A DNA stretch of 64,000 nt, taken from the NCBI GenBank assembly GCA_963402885.1, contig OY727096.1, positions 12,133,820-12,197,819 on the forward strand, read 5' to 3'. Position numbers and translations under genes: made by a program. The notes under the pieces are model-generated. The model saw only the letters and a program-made list of their open reading frames with translations. It was not told the DNA's origin and did not search any database. Position 1 is the stretch's first letter. The number at the start of each line of letters is the position of its first letter. Shown one piece after another: positions 2,751 through 32,800 of the stretch. Source of the DNA: Antedon bifida. Taxonomy: Eukaryota; Echinodermata; Crinoidea; Comatulida; Antedonidae.

Positions 2751-2754
2751 AAGT
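2751..2754. repeat. Left target-site duplication (AAGT)
   Basis: AAGT directly precedes the first terminal base of the element and is repeated directly after its last base (10694-10697). The intact satellite reads CATCAAAGTGTACAG, so exactly 4 bp were duplicated on insertion. Confidence 0.9.
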
Positions 2755-2767
2755 CACAGCTGTTCCA
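2755..2767 (+). repeat. Left terminal inverted repeat
   Basis: CACAGCTGTTCCA, matching the reverse complement of 10681-10693 at all 13 positions. The first five bases, CACAG, equal the start of the V(D)J signal heptamer CACAGTG and resemble Transib ends. The similarity ends sharply at base 14. Confidence 0.95.
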
Positions 2768-2788
2768 TCATGTAATAAATATTAATAA

Positions 2789-2821
2789 AAGTCAAGCGCC
2801 CTCAATATTAGCAGACGACGC
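2789..2821 (+). promoter_or_regulatory. Left subterminal conserved block (probable transposase-binding site)
   Basis: AAGTCAAGCGCCCTCAA at 2789-2805 matches the right-end block (reverse complement of 10652-10668) at 13 of 17 bases, as AAGTCnnGCGCCnnCAA. A second word, ACGACGC at 2815-2821, matches the complement of 10638-10644. GC-rich words in AT-rich DNA, shared by both ends in the same order, suggest binding sites. From the 13-bp terminal repeat to the first block there are 21 bp here and 12 bp at the other end. The binding role is inferred. Confidence 0.65.
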
Positions 2822-2849
2822 TCGAGCAACGGCGCAAATTATGATTTTC

Positions 2850-2881
2850 GCTATCGATCGTATTTTCGCGAGATCGATAGC
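2850..2881. repeat. Subterminal hairpin (10-bp stem)
   Basis: GCTATCGATC at 2850-2859 pairs perfectly with GATCGATAGC at 2872-2881 around a 12-nt loop. It lies about 95 bp inside the left end with no counterpart seen at the right end. It could be a transposase or host-factor site, or part of the promoter region. Confidence 0.6.
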
Positions 2882-3011
2882 TATTTTTTTCACCTTGTAG
2901 TACTTATTAGTTTAATAATTCTTAACATACTGTTTTTGTTCAATATTAAATTCATTTGGTTAAAACATAAACATGTTATTGTTTGACCACGCTTAAAATA
3001 TAAAAAAATCT

Positions 3012-3018
3012 TATAAAG
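3012..3018 (+). promoter_or_regulatory. Possible TATA box of the transposase gene
   Basis: TATAAAG lies 35 bp before the first possible ATG (3047) and 53 bp before the better-context ATG (3065). The surrounding 2882-3046 stretch is AT-rich and non-coding. In DNA this AT-rich the match is weak evidence, and a non-coding first exon further upstream is possible. Confidence 0.35.
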
Positions 3019-3046
3019 CAGATTTTAATCACATTTAGTACAGTAC

Positions 3047-3093
3047 ATGAAACCAGGAAATACTATGGCTAGCGCTACAAATAGTAAACAAAC
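3047..3093 (+). CDS. Exon 1: short N-terminal leader
   Basis: Codes residues 1-15 plus two bases of codon 16, then donor GTAAGT. It joins in frame to exon 2, giving a Thr codon followed by EEQFHERAIDS. That run resembles the segment before the first N-terminal Cys pair of RAG1. The peptide itself has no recognisable motif. Confidence 0.6.
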
Positions 3094-6000
3094 GTAAGTG
3101 AACAAAAATGATCGTATTATTTTACTGTTTTTGTTTAAATGTAATTTTTTGTAGATAAACAGCAAATATTATGTAAAACAAAATTTGTATATGATTCAAT
3201 TGAGCAAAGGTTTAAATAGAGTTGCTGGTTAGAAACCTGGTAAAATCCCGTAATGTGCAACCCTTTTTTATACGATCAGCGTATCGGCGATTTCAGCGGA
3301 GCGCTCAGGCCTAGGTGATGACCGCGACAAGAGCGGTATAGGTGGGGGCCTAGGATGACGCTAGGCCCAACGCTAGAAAATTTGATATTTACTATTATTA
3401 AAACATAGTTATTTGTTTTTTTTCTAGGCCTACAGTTTGGCATTATTTATTGTTGACAAAATAAAATTATTATTTAGATTTTAGAATATTATAAATATAA
3501 TTAAATATTAATAATACTACTAGCCTATATGCCTAGACCAGTCTGACAGTGTAGGCATGATAGTATATTATAGGCATAGCATATAACTAATTAGTTATAA
3601 CTAATAATACGAAACCCAACATTGCACTGTTGCGCCCAATTGTTTTTTTTTTAAATTCATAGATTGATGATATAATTTTTTTACAGGGAGGAGCAGTTTC
3701 ATGAGAGGGCTATAGACTCCATCTGTCATTGCTGTGGTAAAAAAATTAAAGAAAATGAAAAAAAGTATAAAAGTGAGAATATGAAAATTCAACTACAAAT
3801 AAATGACATACATTTTGAATGGATCTGTTCAACATGTCACTCAAAAGTTATTAAAGGACAGACCATATCACCATTTTTTCAATTAGCTAAATTACATACA
3901 TCGAAATGCCTTGCTTGCTACTTATTGAGGCAGCAATTGAGACCAGGAAGACGGTTGAAACAATACAAGTTTCCTGATTCCCGTAACATTAGGGGAAATT
4001 TTGTATCGGCACAAAGCGAACTCGCTTTAAATCGCCAATATCGTATTTTTGATGATGCTGATAATATATACGAATGCAATGTTTGTGGCAATCTACTTTC
4101 TGTTGACAGTATACAGACACCGTGTCAACATTTCTATTGCAATTTCTGCATACAGAAAGTCTTTAAGGCAGTTGGAAGAGGAGAAATTGAATGCTTCAGT
4201 TGTGACAACGTATTGACCCCTCACAACATTCAGTCAATTCCACCAATTGTGGAACAGTCCATTTTAAAGGTGCCTCTAAAATGCACTAACTGCAATCTGA
4301 AGCTGGTGCTAGCTGAAACAGAAAGCCACTTTTGTAAATCTATAAAGGAACAAGCATTTGCAACGATTGTGAATGCTGTTAAAGAAATAAGTGCGACAAC
4401 AAATCAAGTACATGTGTATCCAGCAGAACTAAAGAACATGGCACATGGCCTTGTGAGAAAAGAAATAGTTGATGGGAAAATGTCCCTCACAACTCAAGGA
4501 CGAGTAAGTTTTACAGCCAACTTGATATAAATAAACACAAAGATGTACATTAAAAAACATTAATAAATTGTAATTCATAAATTTATTTTAATCAATGTAC
4601 ATATAAAAATATAACATGTATACAGTACTGTAGTAAATGAAAAAAAAACTCTTTATATACAGTAATAAAGTCTATACAAATATACAGGCTGGCAAATACA
4701 GTATATATTATATCATTTTATATTATAATTAATAGTAATGATGAATATATTTATGTTTTTCAAATTCAGCCACTAAAACTTGTCACCGAGACAATAGCCT
4801 CACCACCACCAGCCATTCCAATCAATTTCGCTTATCCCCAAATGGATGCCAAAAAATGCCTAGCAGTGATGAACAAATGCAGAATAAACTGGAGTCAACA
4901 ACGGGCGCTGCGGAGGTATGTAAATTATAATAGTTATAATAATTGTTATCCAAACTAATGATAACCCAGTCAGTAAGTAAATGCAGTATTTTCTTTTTCA
5001 GATTCTGTCCAGGTTTATTTGCATCAGAGCGCAAAATGCGAATATGTCAAGAAGAGATTGTAGGCGATTACCTAAGAAAATCCTTAGAATACATGTTTCT
5101 AAAGAGAGACTGTGCTACCTCTATCGGAGGGCTGGTGCTAGAAGAGGTAGCAGTCGTACGACTAACAAAGATTAAAGAACTTGTATACGACTACTTGAAT
5201 AAATATGACATGTAGGTTTTTCATAGGATTAATTTTTCAATTGTATTTATTTAAATCCATAAAATAAAAAACACATTTAGTTTTGAAAGGATAAAATACA
5301 TAAATTACAAAAATGTCTTGCTTTCTACACTACATTTTTATAATTATATGCTATTTTAGGTCAGATGAACTCACCTTCAATAGGCCTAATGACGAGATCT
5401 TTATCAAATTTGGTGGTGATAAGGGTGGTGACACCACCAAATTCGAATTGCAAATTTGTGGTTTGGAAAAGCCGAACGCCCTGCAGAACATCATCGTGAT
5501 TCTGATATTTCAAGCCCCAGACCTTACCATCAACATAGAAAAGGGACTAAACTTAGTGATCGATGAGGTCATGGAATTAGATGGAAGTCAGTGGGTCTCA
5601 CCCAAAACAAAGAGGTAATGTACTGTATAGCAGAACAATTAATCCAAAATATATAGGTGATGGTATAATTGTTATAAAACCTAGTGTATGTTATGGTTAT
5701 AATTTACTCATATTGCAGAACTCATAACATCAGGCTCTTTTGTTTTGGGGACTACGACTTTTTATCCCGAATATATGGACTGGTTGGCCCCAATGGTGAG
5801 TAAATAATTGCGAGTTAATAAATATTTAATTGTATTGTTGAAACTTCCTTGGACAATTTTTTGTTATGGGATTTTCATGTGCTGTATAATTTAGAATTTT
5901 AAAAAACTATACTTTAAATCCCTGCTAAAAATATTAAGTATTGCCTTTTTATTTTTTTATTAAAATGCATCTTTAACTAAGATGTTTTAGCTGTGTTTTT

Positions 6001-8051
6001 CCTATAGGCAAATACAGTTGCATCTACTGCTATTGCAACCAGGATGATATAAAGCAAAACAGGGCACCTCAGAGCAGCAGATGCCTGAAATCGTATAATC
6101 GCGATTTTAAGTCATTTGTAGACCATGGCCAAGACATAAAGAAAAGCAAGCTGGTGTCAAATAGTGTAATTAGACCTTACATGGTCAACATTGAGTTAAA
6201 CAGGGTAAGCGAATTAGTCGTTAGTTGAACAGTTAAATAGAATTTTAGTTATGACATTTTGCAACAGTGAGTTTTGATTTGCATGTCCTCTAATCGACAC
6301 AACATGTACAGTATAATAAATCCATTTTTTAGCTGGTTGAAGCATCAACCTATTTGATGCATGTGCAAAGTGTTGACATGGTGGACATGCAAATTGTTTA
6401 AAAATTAAAACAAAAAAATAACAATCATAATATAGCATGCATACCTTTGTTTGTCAGTGTAATTAATTCCAAGTAATAAAATTATATTTTCCAGGTATCC
6501 ATTCCAGCTTTGCACATATCGCTTGGTCTATTTAAAAAAATGTATGACATGCTGGAAAAGGACATACATAACCTGGACCTCATCATTTTTAATATGAGAC
6601 AGGATGCATCCAATCAAATATATGAGGGTGAATTGCTTTTTTTTAAACCAGAAATTTAAATCTGTTGCCATCTTCCTTTGTAAATGCTTGACTAAATAAA
6701 TTTAAAATCTATTATTCCAGGTGAATTTTTACCAGACTTTGACAAAAAAGTAGCTGAAGCCACATCCAATCGAAACTCTTGTGCAGAAAAAATTAAGTCT
6801 TTGGATGCAGAAATTGATGAGTTGCGCAACCAACTCTCATTGTCACTTGTTCAACGTGAATATAATGCGGATACCATTTCACAGCTTGGACACCAGATCA
6901 ATCTAAAAGATCAAGAAGTTAAAGACTTGGTAAATATAAATACAATGTAGTTAATTAAAATGGATTCAATTAAACGCTTTTAATACACATTTTATATTTC
7001 CTAATAGCGTACTTCATTAAACAGCGACCTAAAATTTGGAACTGGACCTCTTGCGACGCAAATGGATGAAATTCTACGGAAAAACAAAATTCCTCGCCAA
7101 CAATACCATGGAAAGAGTTTTGTTGGAAATCATGTATATAGAGCCTGTAAAGTAAGTGTTTACATTGTCATAGAAGATTGATTAATAATAATAATTTCGA
7201 AATACAATGCTCCTTCAATCATTATTTGGAATTAGTCAAGTTCAATTTTTATATAACTGATATTGAAAGAATGTGAATATGCCAGTGATTTTTATCTTTC
7301 CTGATGTGCTTGTGTTTCTAAGTTTCACTTACCTTGGTAAAAGGCTTCCTACTTTCTAGGAGTTTTATCAGATAATCAATATTGTTTTGAAAACACTTGC
7401 TGATGTTGCCATTTTGTTGTTGTTTCAGTTTAATATAATAGACAAACTTATGGATGGAGTTGAAGTTACACTCAAGCAACAACTAAATCACTGCCCTGAA
7501 CACTGCAAGAATCTGTTGAAGATCAAGATACAGAAGATACGTCAATCATTTACACCTGTGTTTAACACATTCAGTAAAGTACATGCCTGCATAAACCATA
7601 CTAGATGTATTGATGATGCAGAAATTGATGGATATGGTAAGCTAACAAAAATGCTTTATTATTGGCAATTTATATTACAAAATTGTACACAAATTTATCG
7701 TAACAAATTTTCATTTATAACTAATTAAACTTCAATACAGAAAATGCAATAAACAAGTTCTCAAAAGAGTACAGACGAATAGCACCAGGGGTCATACAAC
7801 CCAAGCTCCACATGCTGGAACATCATGCCATTCCATTCATGAGGGAGTGGGGAGTCGGAATAGGTCTTTTATCAGAACAAGGAGGAGAGCTCATACACGC
7901 GGAATTCAATCGACGTAAAAGGGCTGTTTATGGGATCCGCAGCAATTTGGACCAATTGATGTCGATGATGACATCACATTTAGTGTTCACTTCACCTGAA
8001 ATTCAGCATGAAGTTACCCAACCTAAGAAATGCAGGAAAGATGAAGAATGA
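3047..8051 (+). CDS. RAG1L: RAG1-like transposase, 12 exons, 917 aa predicted
   Basis: Predicted join: 3047-3093, 3687-4503, 4770-4915, 5002-5211, 5360-5614, 5719-5795, 6008-6204, 6495-6627, 6721-6929, 7008-7151, 7429-7636, 7741-8051. Exons total 2,754 nt; every intron is GT-AG and every junction keeps frame. The protein would cut and paste the surrounding element. Domains in order: Cys pairs at 29/32, 63/66 and 90/93; RING finger 146-188; Cys/His finger 215-232; helical linker; RNase H-type core with D427, D505 and E864 as likely acidic residues. A CxxC (522/525), SIxALH (585-590), a coiled coil (about 650-697), a GN motif (737-738) and HxxxHH (838-843) accompany them. Order and spacing follow RAG1 (about 1,040 aa); for example CxxC to ALH is about 65 residues in both. 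An in-frame TAA precedes 3047, which is the first ATG, but ATG 3065 has the better context (A at -3, G at +4). No disabling mutation is seen. Exon borders are predicted, not proven. Confidence 0.85.
3094..3686 (+). other. Intron 1 (593 bp), no gene
   Basis: Bounded by GTAAGT and a T-rich tract ending TTACAG. It contains a locally GC-rich patch at about 3270-3375, with AGGCCTAGG, GGGGGCCTAGG and GCTAGGCCC words like those at 9930-10076. The remainder is AT-rich. No coding region or RNA gene can be supported here. Confidence 0.65.
3687..4503 (+). CDS. Exon 2: RAG1-type N-terminal zinc clusters, RING and following finger
   Basis: Residues 16-288. Cys pairs at C29/C32 and C63/C66, then H86 with C90/C93 (HTSKCLAC), echo the Cys/His clusters of the vertebrate RAG1 N-terminal domain. 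A RING finger follows with C146, C149, C162, H164, C167, C170, C185 and C188; its spacing C-x2-C-x12-C-x-H-x2-C-x2-C is one residue longer than in RAG1. C215, C218, H230 and C232 make a further finger where RAG1 has its ZFA finger. In RAG1 the RING acts as a ubiquitin ligase and dimerisation region; the same role here is inferred. The frame stays open past the donor to a stop at 4528-4530. Confidence 0.9.
4770..4915 (+). CDS. Exon 3: linker before the catalytic core
   Basis: Residues 289-336 plus two bases, between TTCAG and GTATGT. It begins with a Pro-rich stretch (SPPPAIP) and ends with a basic helix-like segment (SQQRALRR) that continues into exon 4. It sits where RAG1 carries its DNA-end-binding region, but I see no GGRPR nonamer-binding motif. 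Confidence 0.75.
5002..5211 (+). CDS. Exon 4: helical region before the first catalytic Asp
   Basis: Residues 337-406 plus two bases of 407. Predicted mainly helical and charged, with KIKELVYDYLNKYD near its end. Donor GTAGGT lies directly before an in-frame TAG, so splicing is needed to continue. The position matches the pre-RNase H helices of RAG1, although side-by-side similarity is weak. Confidence 0.8.
5360..5614 (+). CDS. Exon 5: first catalytic Asp region
   Basis: Residues 407-491. FGGDKGGDTTKFELQ places D427 at the end of a beta strand, in the position of RAG1 D600. KPN at 444-446 lies where RAG1 has KPN just before E649, and a hydrophobic strand (IIVILIF) follows as in RAG1. The residue aligned with E649 itself is not Glu. 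Confidence 0.85.
5719..5795 (+). CDS. Exon 6: second catalytic Asp
   Basis: Residues 492-517. FGDYDFLSRIYGL aligns with the GYD region of RAG1 around D708, making D505 the best match; D503 is the alternative. The exon ends one base into the Gly codon that starts the zinc-binding stretch. Confidence 0.85.
6008..6204 (+). CDS. Exon 7: CxxC zinc motif of the core
   Basis: Residues 519-583. GKYSCIYCYC has C522 and C525, 17 residues after D505; RAG1 has its CxxC at 727/730, about 19 residues after D708. A third Cys (C527) is extra. A basic, polar segment follows, with a cluster of Lys at 567-570. Confidence 0.85.
6205..6494 (+). other. Intron 7 (290 bp)
   Basis: GTAAGC to TTCCAG. AT-rich, no motif recognised. 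A 74-codon open frame on the opposite strand here has no family signature and ignores the gene structure. Confidence 0.7.
6495..6627 (+). CDS. Exon 8: SIxALH motif region
   Basis: Residues 584-627. VSIPALHISLG matches the SIDALHCDIG stretch of RAG1, giving H590 where RAG1 has an active-site His. The distance from C525 to H590 (65 residues) equals the RAG1 spacing closely. An amphipathic helix (LFKKMYDMLEKD) follows, as in RAG1. Confidence 0.82.
6721..6929 (+). CDS. Exon 9: coiled-coil insert in the core
   Basis: Residues 628-697. Heptad hydrophobics I652, L655, I659, L662 and L666, then I680, L683, I687, V694 and L697, indicate a coiled coil with one break. I know of no matching coiled coil at this point in vertebrate RAG1. 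It may serve dimerisation. Confidence 0.78.
7008..7151 (+). CDS. Exon 10: GN motif region
   Basis: Residues 698-745, in phase 0 at both ends. YHGKSFVGNHVYRACK corresponds to the MNGNFARKL stretch of RAG1, with G737-N738 as the shared pair. Confidence 0.82.
7429..7636 (+). CDS. Exon 11: helical region between GN motif and catalytic Glu
   Basis: Residues 746-814. Acceptor TTTCAG, donor GTAAGC. Contains Cys/His residues in CPEHC and HACINHTRC that could add metal ligands; the RAG1 helical insertion domain also has a Cys-rich stretch here. An open frame beginning at 7387 in the preceding intron is incidental. Confidence 0.8.
7741..8051 (+). CDS. Exon 12: zinc His pair, catalytic Glu and C-terminus
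   Basis: Residues 815-917 and TGA. KLHMLEHHAIPF gives H838 and H842/H843, the counterpart of RAG1 H937/H942. LLSEQGGELIHAEFNRR then matches the SEGNESGNKLFRR stretch of RAG1, making E864 the likely third acidic residue; E860 is the conserved first Glu. The protein ends in a short basic-acidic tail without the longer C-terminus of vertebrate RAG1. Confidence 0.88.
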
Positions 8052-8060
8052 TGTGTGTAT

Positions 8061-9826
8061 GACAATGAATTAGAAGTTGAATGTAAAAAAATGTAATACC
8101 TGTCATAATAATAGAATATTAGAATATACAGTATATATTATTACTGTAACACCCTAAATAATATGGTTAATATTATCTTGGATAGTTACAGTATTATTAT
8201 ATATTTGTACAAACATTCATGACAAGAATCAAATAGTAGTTTGTTTTTTAATTGCACTTTATAATTAATATACATACTAACCATTCAGTGATAATACGAT
8301 TAATACTGTTATGTTAATGTTGCAGTTGACCATTTTCTTTCATCTCTGACATGGGCTGTCCTTGATGAGATGTCGGTTAATGCAGTGCTTTTTTAATCGC
8401 TAATGTTCACGTTAGCTGTTAACATTTAATTTGTTATTACATGATCATCATAGCGAATTGATACTGTAGAAAATAATAATAACAAAAATGTTAATTATCA
8501 TTAATGATAAATTGTACTGTATCAACAGCATGCACTTCTAGAAAATTGAACATGACAATGAATTAGAAGTTGATGTAAAAAAATGTAATACCTGTCATAA
8601 TAATAAAAAAATATATATAATATTATTATTAACATCCTAAATAATATGGTTAATATTATCTTGGATAGTTACAGTATTATTATATATTTGTACAAATATT
8701 CATGACAAGAATCAAATAGTAGTTTGTTTTTTAATTGCACTTTATAATTAATATACATACTAACCATTCAGTGATAATACGATTAATACTGTTATGTTAA
8801 TGTTGCAGTTGACCATTTTCTTTCATCTCTGACATGGGCTGTCCTTGATGAGATGTCGGTTAATGCAGTGCATTTTTAATCGCTAATGTTCACGTTAGCT
8901 GTTAACATTTAATTTGTTATTACATGATCATCATAGCGAATTGATACTGTAGAAAATAATAATAACAAAAATGTTAATTATCATTAATGATAAATTGTAC
9001 TGTATCAACAGCATGCACTTCTAGAAAATTGAACATGACAATGAATTAGAAGTTGATGTAAAAAAATGTAATACCTGTCATAATAATAAAAAAATATATA
9101 TAATATTATTATTAACATCCTAAATAATATGGTTAATATTATCTTGGATAGTTACAGTATTATTATATATTTGTACAAATATTCATGACAAGAATCAAAT
9201 AGTTGTTTGTTTTATTAATTGCACTTTATAATTAATATACATACTAACCATTCAGTGATAATACGATTAATACTGTTATGTTAACGTTGCAGTTGACCAT
9301 TTTCTTTCATCTCTGACATGGGCTGTCCTTGATGAGATGTCGGTTAATGCAGTGTTTTTTGATGAGTAAAGAAAATAAACAATAAATTAATATGAATGCA
9401 AAAAAAAATGTTGTAATTGGAAAATTTAAAATGTAATTTTCATGTTACATTACAATACAGTACTTAATAATTAATCGCTAATGTTCATTTTTCTGTTATC
9501 CGTTATGTTAGCTGTTAACTTTTAACTTGTTATTACATAATGGCTGCGAATTGATACTGTGGAAAATAATAATAACAAAAATGTTAATTATCATTAATAA
9601 TGATAAATTGTACTGTATCAACAGCATGCACTTCTAGAAAATTGAACATGACAATGATAATGTCAGAAGTTGATGTAAAAAAATGTAATACCTGTCATAA
9701 TGAATAAAATATATATAATATTATTATTAACATCCTAAATAATATGGTTAATATTATCTTGGATAGTTACAGTATCAAACAAGAATCAAATAGTTGTTTG
9801 TTTTTTTAATTGCACTTTGTATCTTA
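8061..9826. repeat. Tandem repeat, ~485-bp unit, about 3.5 copies
   Basis: Unit starts (GACAATGA) at 8061, 8554, 9037 and 9650, giving lengths of 493, 483 and 613 bp plus a partial copy. Units 1 and 2 are nearly identical. Unit 3 carries about 130 extra bases from about 9357, between GTTAATGCAGTG and TAATCGCTAATG. The last copy has an internal deletion and fades after AATTGCACTTT near 9819. The first unit begins 9 bp after the stop codon, so it forms the 3' untranslated region. Confidence 0.9.
8602..8607 (+). terminator. Possible polyadenylation signal
   Basis: First AATAAA after the stop codon, about 550 bp downstream, in the second tandem unit. The first unit has AATAGA at the matching place. 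The signal recurs in the third unit (about 9085), so alternative ends are possible. Weak evidence in AT-rich DNA. Confidence 0.3.
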
Positions 9827-9929
9827 TATTATTCTTATTCTATTAGTATTAAATTAGGTACACCAGTCATTAGGCCTATTTAAGTATTATTTGTGTATTA
9901 TGTTAACATTGCATGGAAGAAATGTATTT

Positions 9930-10076
9930 AGGTAGCTAGCTAGGCTATAATACCGAACCAAATAAATAGGCCTACTACTAAGACTAGGCCTAGCTAGGCT
10001 AGGCCCTAGCTAGGCCTATGTAAAATAAAATGATAGGCTAGGCCTAGCCTAGGCCTGAGCTTATTAGGCTAGGTAA
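9930..10076. repeat. TAGGCCTA/CTAGC palindrome-rich patch
   Basis: Dense overlapping words of AGGCCT, CTAGG and TAGCTAGG, including the perfect 18-bp palindrome TAGGCTAGGCCTAGCCTA at 10034-10051. Similar words occur in intron 1. Function unknown; it may be simple-sequence expansion. Confidence 0.7.
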
Positions 10077-10637
10077 AACATCATTATGTTCCGGTGATTT
10101 TAAACTTGCTTGGGTGATGATACAGAGTACTTTGCGCTTGAAATACACTGCAACTGGATTATCTAGGCCCACTATAATGGCTAGCCTCAGACCGAAAATA
10201 TTCATATTGGCAAACGGCCATAATACAAATCTCAGCCAGCAACTCTCCTTATCTACCCTTTTAAAACACTCACAAGATAACTAACTATCAAACCATATCA
10301 ATGACTACTACTTAAAAAATCAGTTTTAATATATACGGGCAAACAAAGTTACACCTACTTTATAATCTCTTCAAGATTGTTTGTAATGTTGTAGACTTGG
10401 CATTTTTGGCTTGACTTTTCGTTGAACTTTTTGTCCTCAATCACACGTGAGAAGACAATATCAACACATTTCCAGCTTCGTCGAGAGTTGTTGTAATGAA
10501 TATTCATATTTTTTAAACCAGCTTGATCTTTACTTTATTTTTATTGGCTGTTTAATTACAGCCATTCTATGCCTGACCGGGTTTATTCTTTACACGTGGT
10601 TTGTATACAACTGTTAACGCATTCTTAACTCCACAGT
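10077..10637. other. Right internal region, no gene recognised
   Basis: AT-rich, single-copy within the window. Two short minus-strand open frames (10355-10507, and one of about 55 codons starting near 10207) have no recognised domain. No kelch repeat, zinc finger or RNA gene is seen. Confidence 0.5.
10355..10507 (-). CDS. Possible small minus-strand ORF or exon, 50 aa
   Basis: An ATG-to-TAG frame reading inward from the right end, with W12, C14 and C36 and mixed-charge composition rather than AT-driven Lys/Asn runs only. A GTAGGT just before its stop could be a splice donor. No homologue recognised, and an unspliced frame of 50 codons is not unusual by chance. Confidence 0.2.
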   Translation of the reverse strand: MNIHYNNSRRSWKCVDIVFSRVIEDKKFNEKSSQKCQVYNITNNLEEIIK

Positions 10638-10668
10638 GCGTCGTTTAAACGTTGGTGGCGCCAGACTT
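10638..10668 (-). promoter_or_regulatory. Right subterminal conserved block (probable transposase-binding site)
   Basis: The complement of 10652-10668 reads AAGTCTGGCGCCACCAA, sharing AAGTCnnGCGCCnnCAA with the left end. ACGACGC (complement of 10638-10644) follows in the same order. Here the spacer from the 13-bp terminal repeat is 12 bp against 21 bp at the left end; the ACGACGC words are offset by 11 bp between ends. Confidence 0.65.
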
Positions 10669-10680
10669 AATTTGTATAGG

Positions 10681-10693
10681 TGGAACAGCTGTG
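10681..10693 (-). repeat. Right terminal inverted repeat
   Basis: TGGAACAGCTGTG, the exact reverse complement of 2755-2767. The satellite resumes at the next base. Confidence 0.95.
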
Positions 10694-10697
10694 AAGT
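10694..10697. repeat. Right target-site duplication (AAGT)
   Basis: AAGT repeats 2751-2754; the satellite then continues GTACAGAATAG in the phase left off at 2754. Confidence 0.9.
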
Positions 10698-11561
10698 GTA
10701 CAGAATAGCTTCAAATCGCATTTGGAGACGTTTTTAGACCAATTTGTGATTTTCGAAAAAACTTGTTAACATAAAAACACCAAAGTGCTTAGAATAGCTT
10801 CAAATCGCATTTTGAGACATTTTAGACAATTTGTGATTTTCGAAAGAACTTGGTTACACAAAAACATAAAAGTGCTTAAAATCGCATTAGAAACCGTTTT
10901 AGACCATTTTGAGCATTTCGATAAAACTTTTCACACAAAAACATCAAAGAGCACAAAATAGCTTAATATCGTATTTAAAAACGTTTTAGACAATTTTGAG
11001 CATTTCGACAAAAAATTTTTCACACAAAACATCAAAGTGTACAGAATAGCTTCAAATCGTATTTAAAAACGTTTTAGACCATTTTGAGCATTTCGACAAA
11101 AATTTTTCACACAAAACATCAAAGTGTACAGAATAGCTTCAAATCGCATTTGGAGACGTTTTAGACCATTTTGTGATTTTCGAAAAAACTTGTTAACATA
11201 AAAACACCAAAGTGCTTAGAATAGCTTCAAATCGCATTTGGAGACGTTTTAGACCATTTTGTGATTTTCGAAAAAACTTGTTAACATAAAAACATCAAAG
11301 TGTTCAGAATAGCTTCAAATCGCATTTGGAGACGTTTTAGACCATTTTGTGATTTTCGAAAAAAGTTGTTAACATAAAAACATCAAAGTGTACAGAATAG
11401 CTTCATATCGCATTTGGAGACGTTTTAGACCATTTTGGGATTTTCGAAAAAACTTGTTAACATAAAAACACCAAAATGTACAGAATAGCTTCAAATCGCA
11501 TTTGGAGACGTTTTAGACCATTTTGTGATTTTCGAAATAACTTGTTAACATAAAAACATCA

Positions 11562-18256: not shown

Positions 18257-21200
18257 TCAAATCGCATATTGAGACATTTTAGAATATTTTGTGATTTTCA
18301 AAAAAATTTGGTTACACAAAAACACCAAAGTGCTTAGAATAGCTTCAAATCGCATTTCGAGACGTTTTAGACCATTTTGAGCATTTCGACAAAAATTTTT
18401 AACACAAAACATCAAAGTGTACAGAATAGCTTCAAATCGCATATGAAGACATATTAGACGATTTTGTGATTTTCGAAAAAAGTTGTTAACATAAAAACAT
18501 CAAAGTGTACAGAATAGCTTCAAATCGCATTTGGAAACGTTTTAGACCATTTTCTGATTTTCGAAAAAAAATTGTTAACATAAAAACATCAAAGTGCTTA
18601 GAATAGCTTCAAATCGCATTTGGAGACGTTTTAGACCATTTTGTGATTTTCGAAAAAACTTGTTAACATAAAAACATCAAAGTGTACAGAATAGCTTCAA
18701 ATCGCATTTGGAGACGTTTTAGAATATTTTCTGATTTTCGAAAAAAATTGTTAACATAAAAACATCAAAGTGCTTAGAATAGCTTCAAATCGCATTTGGA
18801 GACGTTTTAGACCATTTTGTGATTTTCGAAAAAACTTGTTAACATAAAATCATCAAAGTGTACAGAATAGCTTCAAATCGCATTTGGAGACGTTTTAGAC
18901 CATTTTGTGATTTTCAAAAAAACTTGTTAACATAAAAACATCAAAGTGTACAGAATAGCTTCAAATCGCATTTGGAGACGTTTTAGACCATTTTGTGATT
19001 TTCGAAAAAACTTTTCACACAAAAACATCAAAGAGCACAAAATAGCTTAATATCGTATTTAAAAACGTTTTAGACCATTTTGTGATTTTCGAAAAAACTT
19101 GTTAACATAAAAACATCAAAGTGTACAGAATAGCTTCAAATCGCATTTGGAGACGTTTTAGACCATTTGGTGATTTTCGAAAAAACTTGTTAACATAAAA
19201 ACATCAAAGTGTACAGAATAGCTTCAAATCGCATTTGGAGACGTTTTAGACCATTTTGTGATTTTCGAAAAAACTTGTTAACATAAAAACATCAAAGTGT
19301 TCAGAATAGCTTGAAATCGCATTTGGAGACGTTTTAGACCATTTTGTGATTTTCGAAAAAACTTTTCACAAAAAAACATCAAAGAGCACAAAATAGCTTA
19401 ATATCGTATTTAAAAACGTTTTAGACAATTTTGAGGATTTCGACAAAAATTATTCACACCAAACATCAAAGTGTACAGAATAGCTTCAAATCGCATTTGG
19501 ACATGTTTTAGACCATTTTGTGATTTTCGAAAAAACTTGTTAACATAAAACCATCAAAGTGTACAGAATAGCTTCAAATCGCATTTGGAGACGTTTTAGA
19601 CCATTTTGTGATTTTCGAAAAAACTTGTTAACATAAAAACATCAAAGTGTACAGAATAGCTTCAAATCGCATTTGGAGATGTTTTAGACCATTTTGTGAT
19701 TTTCGAAAAAAGTTGTTAACATAAAAACATCAAAGTGTACAGAATAGCTTCAAATCGCATTTGGAGACGTTTTAGACCATTTTGTGATTTTCGAAAAAAC
19801 TTGTTAACATAAAATCACCAAAGTGCTTAGAATAGCTTCAAATCGCATTTGGAGATGTTTTAGACCATTTTGTGATTTTCGAAAAAAGTTGTTAACATAA
19901 AAACATCAAAGTTTACAGAATAGCTTCAAATCGCATTTGGAGACCTTTTAGACCAATTTGTGATTTTCGAAAAAACTTGTTAACATAAAATCACCAAAGT
20001 GCTTAGAATAGCTTCAAATCGCATTTTGAGACATTTTAGACAATTTGTGATTTTCGAAAGAACTTGGTTACACAAAAACATAAAAGTGCTTAAAATCGCA
20101 TTAGAAACCGTTTTAGACCATTTTGAGCATTTTGATAAAACTTTTCACACAAAAACATCAAAGAGACCATTTTGTGATTTTCGAAAAAACTTGTTAACAT
20201 AAAAACACCAAAGTGTTTAGAATAGCTTCAAATCGCATTTGGAGACGTTTTAGACCATTTTGTGATTTTCGAAAAAACTTGTTCACATAAAAACATCAAA
20301 GTGTACAGAATAGCTTCAAATCGCATTTGGAGACGTTTTAGACCATTTTGTGATTTTCGAAAAAACTTTTCACACAAAACATCAAAGTGTACAAAATAGC
20401 TTAATATCGTATTTAAAAACGTTTTAGACCATTTTGAGCATTTCGACAAAAATTTTTCACACAAAACATCAAAGTGTACAGAATAGCTTCAAATCGCATT
20501 TGGAGACGTTTTAGACCATTTTGTGATTTTCGAAAAAACTTGTTAACAGAAAAACACCAAAGTGCTTAGAATAGCTTCAAATCGCATTTTGAGACATTTT
20601 AGAATATTTTGTGATTTTCGAAAAAACTTGGTTACACAAAAACACCAAAGTGCTTAGAATAGCTTCAAATCGCATTTGGAGACGTTTTAGACCATTTTGA
20701 GCATTTTGACAAAACATTTTAACACAAAACATCAAAGTGTACAGAATAGCTTAAAATCGTATTTGGAGACGTTTTAAACCATTTTGTGATTTTCGAAAAA
20801 ATTTGTTAACATAAAAACACCAAAGTGCTAGGAATAGCTTCAAATCGCAATTGGAGACATTTTAGACCATTTTGTGATTTTCGAAAAAAGTTGTTAACAT
20901 AAAAACATCAAAGTGTACAGAATAGCTTCAAATCGCATTTGGAGACGTTTTAGACCATTTGGTGATTTTCGAAAAAAATTGTTAACATAAAAACATCAAA
21001 GTGTACAGAATAGCTTCAAATCGCATTTGGAGACGTTTTAGACCATTTTGTGATTTTCGAAAAAACTTGTTAACATAAAAACATCAAAGTGTTCAGAATA
21101 GCTTGAAATCGCATTTGGAGACGTTTTAGACCATTTTGTGATTTTCGAAAAAACTGTTCACACAAAAACATCAAAGAGCACAAAATAGCTTAATATCGTA

Positions 21201-29862: not shown

Positions 29863-32800
29863 GAATAGCTTCAAATCGCATTTTGAGACATTTTAGACAA
29901 TTTGTGATTTTCGAAAGAACTTGGTTACACAAAAACATAAAAGTGCTTAAAATCGCATTAGAAACCGTTTTAGACCATTTTGAGCATTTCGATAAAACTT
30001 TTCACACAAAAACATCAAAGAGACCATTTTGTGATTTTCGAAAAAACTTGTTAACATAAAAACACCAAACTGTTTAGAATAGCTTCAAATCGCATTTGGA
30101 GACGTTTTAGACCATTTTGTGATTTTCGAAAAAACTTGTTCACATAAAAACATCAAAGTGTACAGAATAGCTTCAAATCGCATTTGGAGACGTTTTAGAC
30201 CATTTTGTGATTTTCGAAAAAACTTTTCACACAAAACATCAAAGTGTACAAAATAGCTTAATATCGTATTTAAAAACGTTTTAGACCATTTTGAGCATTT
30301 CGACAAAAATTTTTCACACAAAACATCAAAGTGTACAGAATAGCTTCAAATCGCATTTGGAGACGTTTTAGACCATTTTGTGATTTTCGAAAAAACTTTT
30401 TAACACAAAAACACCAAAGTGCTTAGAATAGCTCCAAATCGCATTTGGAGACGTTTTAGACCATTTGGTGATTTTCGAAAAAAATTGTTAACATAAAAAC
30501 ATCAAAGTGTACAGAATAGCTTCAAATCGCATTTGGAGACGTTTTAGACCATTTTGTGATTTTCGAAAAAACTTGTTAACATAAAAACATCAAAGTGTTC
30601 AGAATAGCTTGAAATCGCATTTGGAGACGTTTTAGACCATTTTGTGATTTTCGAAAAAACTGTTCACACAAAAACATCAAAGAGCACAAAATAGCTTAAT
30701 ATCGTATTTAAAAACGTTTTAGACCATTTTGAGCATTTCGACAAAAATTTTTCACACAAAACATCAAAGTGTACAGAATAGCTTCAAATCGCATTTTGAG
30801 ACGTTTTAGACCATTTTGTGATTTTCGAAAAAACTTGTTAACATAAAAACACCAAAGTGCTTAGAATAGCTTCAAATCGCATTTGGAGACGTTTTAGACC
30901 ATTTTGTGATTTTCGAAAAAACTTGTTAACATAAAAACATCAAAGTGTTCAGAATAGCTTCAAATCGCATTTGGAGACGTTTTAGACCATTTTGTTATTT
31001 TCGAAAAAACTTAGTTACACAAAAACACCAAAGTGCTTAGAATAGCTTCAAATCGCATTTGGAGACGTTTTAGACCATTTTGTGATTTTCGAAAAAAGTT
31101 GTTAACATAAAAACATCAAAGTGTACAGAATAGCTTCATATCGCATTTGGAGACGTTTTAGACCATTTTGTGATTTTCGAAAAAACTTGTTAACACAAAA
31201 ACACCAAAGTGTACAGAATAGTTTCAAATCGCATTTGGAGACGTTTTAGACCATTTTGTGATTTTCGAAAAAACTTTTCACACAAAAACATCAAAGTGTA
31301 CAGAATAGCTTCAAATCGCATTTGGAGACGTTTTAGACCATTTGGTGATTTTCGAAAAAAATTGTTAACATAAAAACATCAAAGTGTACAGAATAGCTTC
31401 AAATCGCATTTGGAGACGTTTTAGACCATTTTGTGATTTTCGAAAAAACTTGTTAACATAAAAACATCAAAGTGTTCAGAATAGCTTGAAATCGCATTTG
31501 GAGACGTTTTAGACCATTTTGTGATTTTCGAAAAAACTTTTCACACAAAAACATCGAAGAGCACAAAATAGCTTAATATCGTATTTAAAAACGTTTTAGA
31601 CCATTTTGAGCATTTCGACAAAAATGTTTCACACAAAACATCAAAGTGTACAGAATAGCTTCAAATCGCATTTTGAGACGTTTTAGACCATTTTGTGATT
31701 TTCGAAAAAACTTGTTAACATAAAAACACCAAAGTGCTTAGAATAGCTTCAAATCGCATTTGGAGACGTTTTAGACCATTTTGTGATTTTCGAAAAAACT
31801 TGTTAACATAAAAACATCAAAGTGTTCAGAAGAGCTTCAAATCGCATTTGGAGCCGTTTTAGACCATTTTGTTATTTTCGAAAAAAGTTGTTCACATAAA
31901 AACATCAAAGTGTACAGAATAGCTTCATATCGCATTTGGAGACGTTTTAGACCATTTTGTGATTTTCGAAAAAACTTGTTAACACAAAAACACCAAAGTG
32001 TACAGAATAGTTTCAAATCGCATTTGGAGACGTTTTAGACCATTTTGTGATTTTCGAAAAAACTTTTCACACAAAAACATCAAAGTGTACAGAATAGCTT
32101 CAAATCGCATTTGGAGACGTTATAGACCATTTTGTGATTTTCGAAAAAAGTTGTTAACATAAAAACATCAAAGTGTACAGAATAGCTTCAAATCGCATTT
32201 GGAGACGTTTTAGACCATTTTGTGATTTTCGAAAAAACTTTTCACACAAAAACATCAAAGAGCACAAAATAGCTTAATATCGTATTTAAAAACGTTTTAG
32301 ACCATTTTGAGCATTTCGACAAAAATTTTTTACACAAAACATCAAAGTGTACAGAATAGCTTCAAATCGCATTTGGAGACGTTTTAGACCATTTTGTGAT
32401 TTTCAAAAAAACTTGTTAACATAAAAACACCAAAGTGTTTAGAATAGCTTCAAATCGCATTTGGAGACGTTTTAGACCATTTTGTGATTTTCGAAAAAAC
32501 TTGTTCACATAAAAACATCAAAGTGTACAGAATAGCTTCAAATCGCATTTGGAGACGTTTTAGACCATTTTGTGATTTTCGAAAAAACTTTTCACACATC
32601 AAACTTTTCACACATCAAAGAGCACAAAATAGCTTAATATCGTATTTAAAAACGTTTTAGACCATTTTGAGCATTTCGACAAAAAATTTTCACACAAAAC
32701 ATCAAAGTGTACAGAATAGCTTCAAATCGCATTTGGAGACGTTTTAGACCATTTTGTGATTTTCGAAAAAACTTTTTAACACAAAAACACCAAAGTGCTT

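Follow-up and report, generated by a model that had tools for sequence, protein, structure and literature searches.

RAG1 is the enzyme that cuts antibody genes, and whether its N-terminal zinc and RING domains came to it by fusion or by descent is an open question. Here we ask how a transposon from the crinoid Antedon bifida, which a first-pass annotation had called RAG1-like while leaving its assignment to N-RAG-TP, ProtoRAG or a new branch undecided, bears on that question. The element occupies positions 2755..10693 (7939 bp, + strand) of a 64,000-nucleotide stretch of contig OY727096.1 (the ‘window’, to which all positions refer). Based on its ends, the empty sites in the surrounding satellite, a DUF1280 match and the alignment of its flanks, we identify it as a complete Chapaev transposon, and are close to certain that it belongs to the Chapaev group (CMC/CMCT clade; reportedly first described by Kapitonov and Jurka in 2007) as an autonomous cut-and-paste DNA transposon of the RING-bearing subtype. 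What makes it interesting is that it is intact and that its kinship with RAG1 can be put in numbers.

The assignment is carried by the transposase. In Pfam, the predicted protein matches DUF1280 (PF06918) with an E value of 5.8e-16 (59.2 bits against a cut-off of 25) over residues 379-480, and PMC3985635 treats this family as putative Chapaev transposases that share the RNase H fold clade of RAG1. The Chapaev hallmarks listed in PMC4079192 are a 3- to 4-bp target-site duplication (TSD), CAC..GTG ends and the motifs C(2)C, LH and H(4)H, each of which is present in the element. The residues that form these motifs (C522/C525, L589/H590 and H838/H843) are invariant in all 10 sequences of an alignment, A1, that excludes the relatives P0008, P0011, P0012 and P0013; so are D427, D503 and E864, which by sequence are the putative catalytic residues, E864 being proposed as the catalytic Glu through its alignment to RAG1 E962.

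According to PMC4411706, two Chapaev subgroups encode a RING placed after a Chapa zinc domain, and neither domain is known from any other transposable element. Compared by description, the element resembles these subgroups in its TSD, its ends, its DUF1280 core and its C(2)C/LH/H(4)H motifs, and also in carrying a RING, called from a Pfam match (PF00097, 21.9 bits against a cut-off of 21), after Chapa-type cysteines. The latter (C29, C32, C63, C66, C90 and C93) are present in all four of the A1 rows that cover the region (window, P0004, P0005 and P0007), among which H86 is not conserved. The putative Chapa part was called from this cysteine pattern and from one relative’s match to RAG1_imp_bd. 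Of 13 relatives, only P0004 exceeds the cut-off for this family (2.6e-7); P0005 falls short of it (0.0014), and the family is unlisted in the other 11 and in the window protein. As a RING-bearing Chapaev (DUF1280) group has already been described (PMC4411706), the element is a well-preserved further member of that group and does not form the new branch that had been considered.

Three points weigh against this assignment. In the window protein, the Chapa part is covered by no Pfam family above cut-off in a list reaching to E 10, and has no match in the PDB at E ≤ 10; the assignment was made through Pfam and published descriptions; and the element, which we presume to be expressed and active, is known here from DNA sequence alone.

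The ends and the target duplication, as first annotated, proved exact. An end search gives a 13-bp terminal inverted repeat, CACAGCTGTTCCA, at 2755..2767 (+ strand), and its exact inverse at 10681..10693 (- strand), so that the termini read CACAGCTGTTCCA and TGGAACAGCTGTG, of the 5'-CAC ... GTG-3' type, and are flanked by the TSD copies AAGT at 2751..2754 and AAGT at 10694..10697. Allowing up to two mismatches, CACAGCTGTTCCA matches only these two ends in the window; since 22 of 100 shuffled controls likewise reach two end matches, the call is based on exactness, inversion and the TSD and not on the match count. The length of the duplication was determined by joining the flanks minus one TSD copy and searching the window for exact matches. 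With 4 bp removed, this yields 121 exact empty sites at 20+20 nucleotides, 84 at 25+25, 7 at 30+30 and 2 at 40+40 (starting at 11526 and 44685), whereas removing 0, 2, 3 or 5 bp yields none in the window at any tested length; the TSD is therefore 4 bp. A joined flank of 1 kb + 1 kb aligns across the junction to other parts of the array with up to 93% identity. The element is inserted into one unit of an 88-bp satellite, and with exact ends, a TSD and an intact gene it is complete; that the insertion is recent is plausible.

The 4-bp duplication bears directly on whether the element is a RAGL/ProtoRAG-type transposon, encoding RAG1L and having a RAG2L that was lost or went unseen. Such an origin would account for an N-terminal profile whose best match is RAG1, for the way in which a structure model of a relative’s core overlays both RAG1 and BbRAGL, and for element ends that start with CACAG, as the recombination signal heptamer does. 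RAGL elements, however, almost always have a 5-bp TSD and carry a convergent RAG2L (PMC7204232), and a 5-bp TSD leaves no empty site here. We found no RAG2-like gene in the 2.6 kb past the gene, where the stop-to-stop open reading frames of at least 60 residues (three, the longest of 78; exons below 60 residues would escape such a scan) contain no Kelch or PHD match. Searches with the core, alone and as a six-sequence profile, bring up neither RAG1 nor RAGL chains at E ≤ 10, and the Pfam listing for the window protein, which extends to E 10, has DUF1280 at 5.8e-16 but no RAG1 family. Taken together, these differences make a RAGL or ProtoRAG identity very improbable.

A Transib that retained RAG1-like N-terminal domains is a slimmer prospect still. 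Transib has a TSD of 5 bp (PMC8355894 and PMC7204232), and PMC4411706 reports no identified domain beyond its core, and no RING, whereas the element, compared with HzTransib, combines a 4-bp TSD with a RING; its core alone retrieves no Transib chain at E ≤ 10. The ‘RAG1-like’ label stands in a broad sense, by profile for the RING and zinc region and by a relative’s model for the core fold, but the core of the 917-residue protein has no significant sequence match to RAG1, ProtoRAG or Transib proteins. As for N-RAG-TP of Aplysia californica, a transposon of RAG1 N-terminal-like sequence (PMC8355894), the comparison is by description; sea slugs do contain relatives of the element’s core (P0008 and P0009).

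The Chapaev gene is predicted to be spliced from 12 exons (2754 bp including the stop, 917 residues) with no internal stop, as had been proposed. All 11 introns have GT..AG borders, and the two alternative frames of the spliced sequence contain 65 and 79 stops. On the + strand, exon 1 (3047..3093, residues 1-16) has the start codon; exon 2 (3687..4503, residues 16-288) the Chapa-type cysteine pattern, the RING (residues 146-188) and a zinc finger; and exon 3 (4770..4915, residues 289-337) a region that lines up, in the profile, with the beginning of the RAG1 core. The DUF1280 match begins in exon 4 (5002..5211, residues 337-407), followed by the proposed first catalytic Asp, D427 (GGDKGG), in exon 5 (5360..5614, residues 407-492) and the proposed second, D503, in exon 6 (5719..5795, residues 492-518). 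Exon 7 (6008..6204, residues 518-583) carries C(2)C, exon 8 (6495..6627, residues 584-628) LH, exon 9 (6721..6929, residues 628-697) a variable stretch and exon 10 (7008..7151, residues 698-745) an invariant SFVGN; exon 11 (7429..7636, residues 746-815) leads to exon 12 (7741..8051, residues 815-917 and the stop), with H(4)H and the proposed catalytic Glu.

Where relatives cover the junctions at residues 337, 407, 518, 583/584, 745/746 and 815, they align across them, save for small gaps close to some of these, and the Antedon mediterranea protein P0013 is continuous over exons 2-5, which supports their joining. At residue 492 the window protein is about six residues longer than most relatives, and the Antedon protein has these residues too. 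Homology support is little for exon 1, and little or none for the junctions at residues 628 and 697, which lie in variable stretches.

Used as a query, the core region recovers 12 proteins, of which 11 have DUF1280 in precomputed annotation; the sources of the 12 include sea stars and sea slugs as well as a sea cucumber and a feather star. In our own profile scans, 12 of 13 relatives carry DUF1280. Those from echinoderms (P0013 and P0004 of Antedon mediterranea, P0001 of Asterias rubens, P0002 and P0006 of Patiria miniata and P0003 of Holothuria leucospilota) have the DUF1280 core in common with the element and are labelled uncharacterized or hypothetical in the databases. P0013 is identical to the window protein in 278 of 478 columns (58%) over exons 2-5. 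In a midpoint-rooted tree of 13 rows (P0012 and P0014 left out, P0008 cut to 700 residues and P0013 filling 47% of columns), these two are paired with support of 100/100, Asterias joins next (99/98), and the window protein and the six echinoderm proteins form a set (100/99), a placement that by itself makes a crinoid or another echinoderm the probable host.

Identity to the Antedon relative is uneven, at 77-84% in three stretches over residues 321-492 compared with 38-68% in the five preceding stretches, and together with the long, intact, multi-exon frame this would fit the domestication of such a transposon as a host gene. A domesticated gene would nevertheless have to be reconciled with exact ends and a TSD within a satellite whose array holds the empty sites, features by which the element looks like a mobile copy, and we give this explanation almost no weight.

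Two relatives have domain combinations of their own. P0004 has RAG1_imp_bd (2.6e-7) and DUF1280 (7.5e-23) in one predicted protein and, by its sequence matches, is a candidate single-protein link from the RAG1 N-terminus to Chapaev. P0008, a 1507-residue gene model of Elysia marginata that bears the name immune-associated nucleotide-binding protein 5, combines an AIG1 GTPase and a Hint module with a Chapaev core, a fusion that may be a gene-model artefact.

How, then, does this Chapaev element relate to RAG1? PMC4411706 had already drawn its group as remote kin of Transib and RAG1, and PMC12730594 places Chapaev, Transib, CACTA/EnSpm and others in CMCT, with C(2)C and H(3-4)H in common with RAG1. 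Judged from the model of a relative, the transposase core would have a RAG1-type fold, and the sequence profile shows the RING and zinc region of the window protein to be of RAG1 type. The structural overlap quantifies a kinship that PMC4411706, PMC3985635 and PMC12730594 drew by other means in the passages available, those on AlphaFold in PMC12730594 dealing with TET/JBP dioxygenases; a search of the open-access literature, with subscription papers outside it, found no overlay of a Chapaev model on RAG1.

For the N-terminal domains of RAG1, PMC8355894 proposes that a Transib fused with an N-RAG element; PMC4411706 starts instead from an ancestor that already bore the zinc and RING domains. 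We consider it possible, while leaning slightly towards the contrary, that RING-bearing Chapaev elements carry the complete RAG1 architecture without RAG2 (an importin-binding/Chapa zinc part, a RING dimerisation part, a segment resembling the nonamer-binding one and the RAG1 core fold in full), and that the RAG1 domains all derive from one ancestral transposase and not from a fusion of Transib and N-RAG. Such a single ancestor is weakest at the segment between the zinc finger and the catalytic core, since this segment alone finds no RAG1 and its GRP triplet (residues 287-289, straddling the exon 2/3 junction) is kept only in the window protein and P0013 among seven rows. Compared with the consensus of the recombination signal nonamer, the left end scores at best 6/9 (at a spacer of 23) and the right 5/9, uncontrolled counts that we did not use. 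If descent from one ancestor is true, the intact copy is a usable enzyme with which to test it; an intact Chapaev with exact ends, from a family with such domains and a RAG1-core overlay, is a practical choice for this.

The element most likely works as a cut-and-paste transposon. By analogy with RAG1 and Transib, the transposase would act as a dimer that binds and pairs both 13-bp CAC..GTG ends, and would cut through an RNase H-fold D427-D503-E864 centre adjoining a C2/H2 zinc site, possibly by way of hairpins. Joining of the ends to the target with a stagger of 4 bp would then produce the AAGT duplication, which is observed together with the insertion. As in RAG1, dimerisation or ubiquitination may be the task of the N-terminal zinc and RING domains, which are RAG1-like.

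Past the gene, the 3' non-coding part of the element contains a 483-bp tandem repeat (8059..9354, 2.7 copies) that begins just past the stop codon and continues in partial copies to about 9829. Rfam gave no match at gathering score. The satellite setting described at first holds in full, with empty sites in the same array: apart from the element and two 38-bp stretches (20126-20163 and 29983-30020, by BLAST comparison), the rest of the window consists of the 88-bp unit, and besides the element these two are its only satellite-free stretches longer than 25 bp. Within the satellite, four sites (17162, 23079, 32585 and 41081) have a doubled 16-mer, AAACTTTTCACACATC (2.2 copies, 100% matching), and perhaps mark a longer, higher-order satellite unit.
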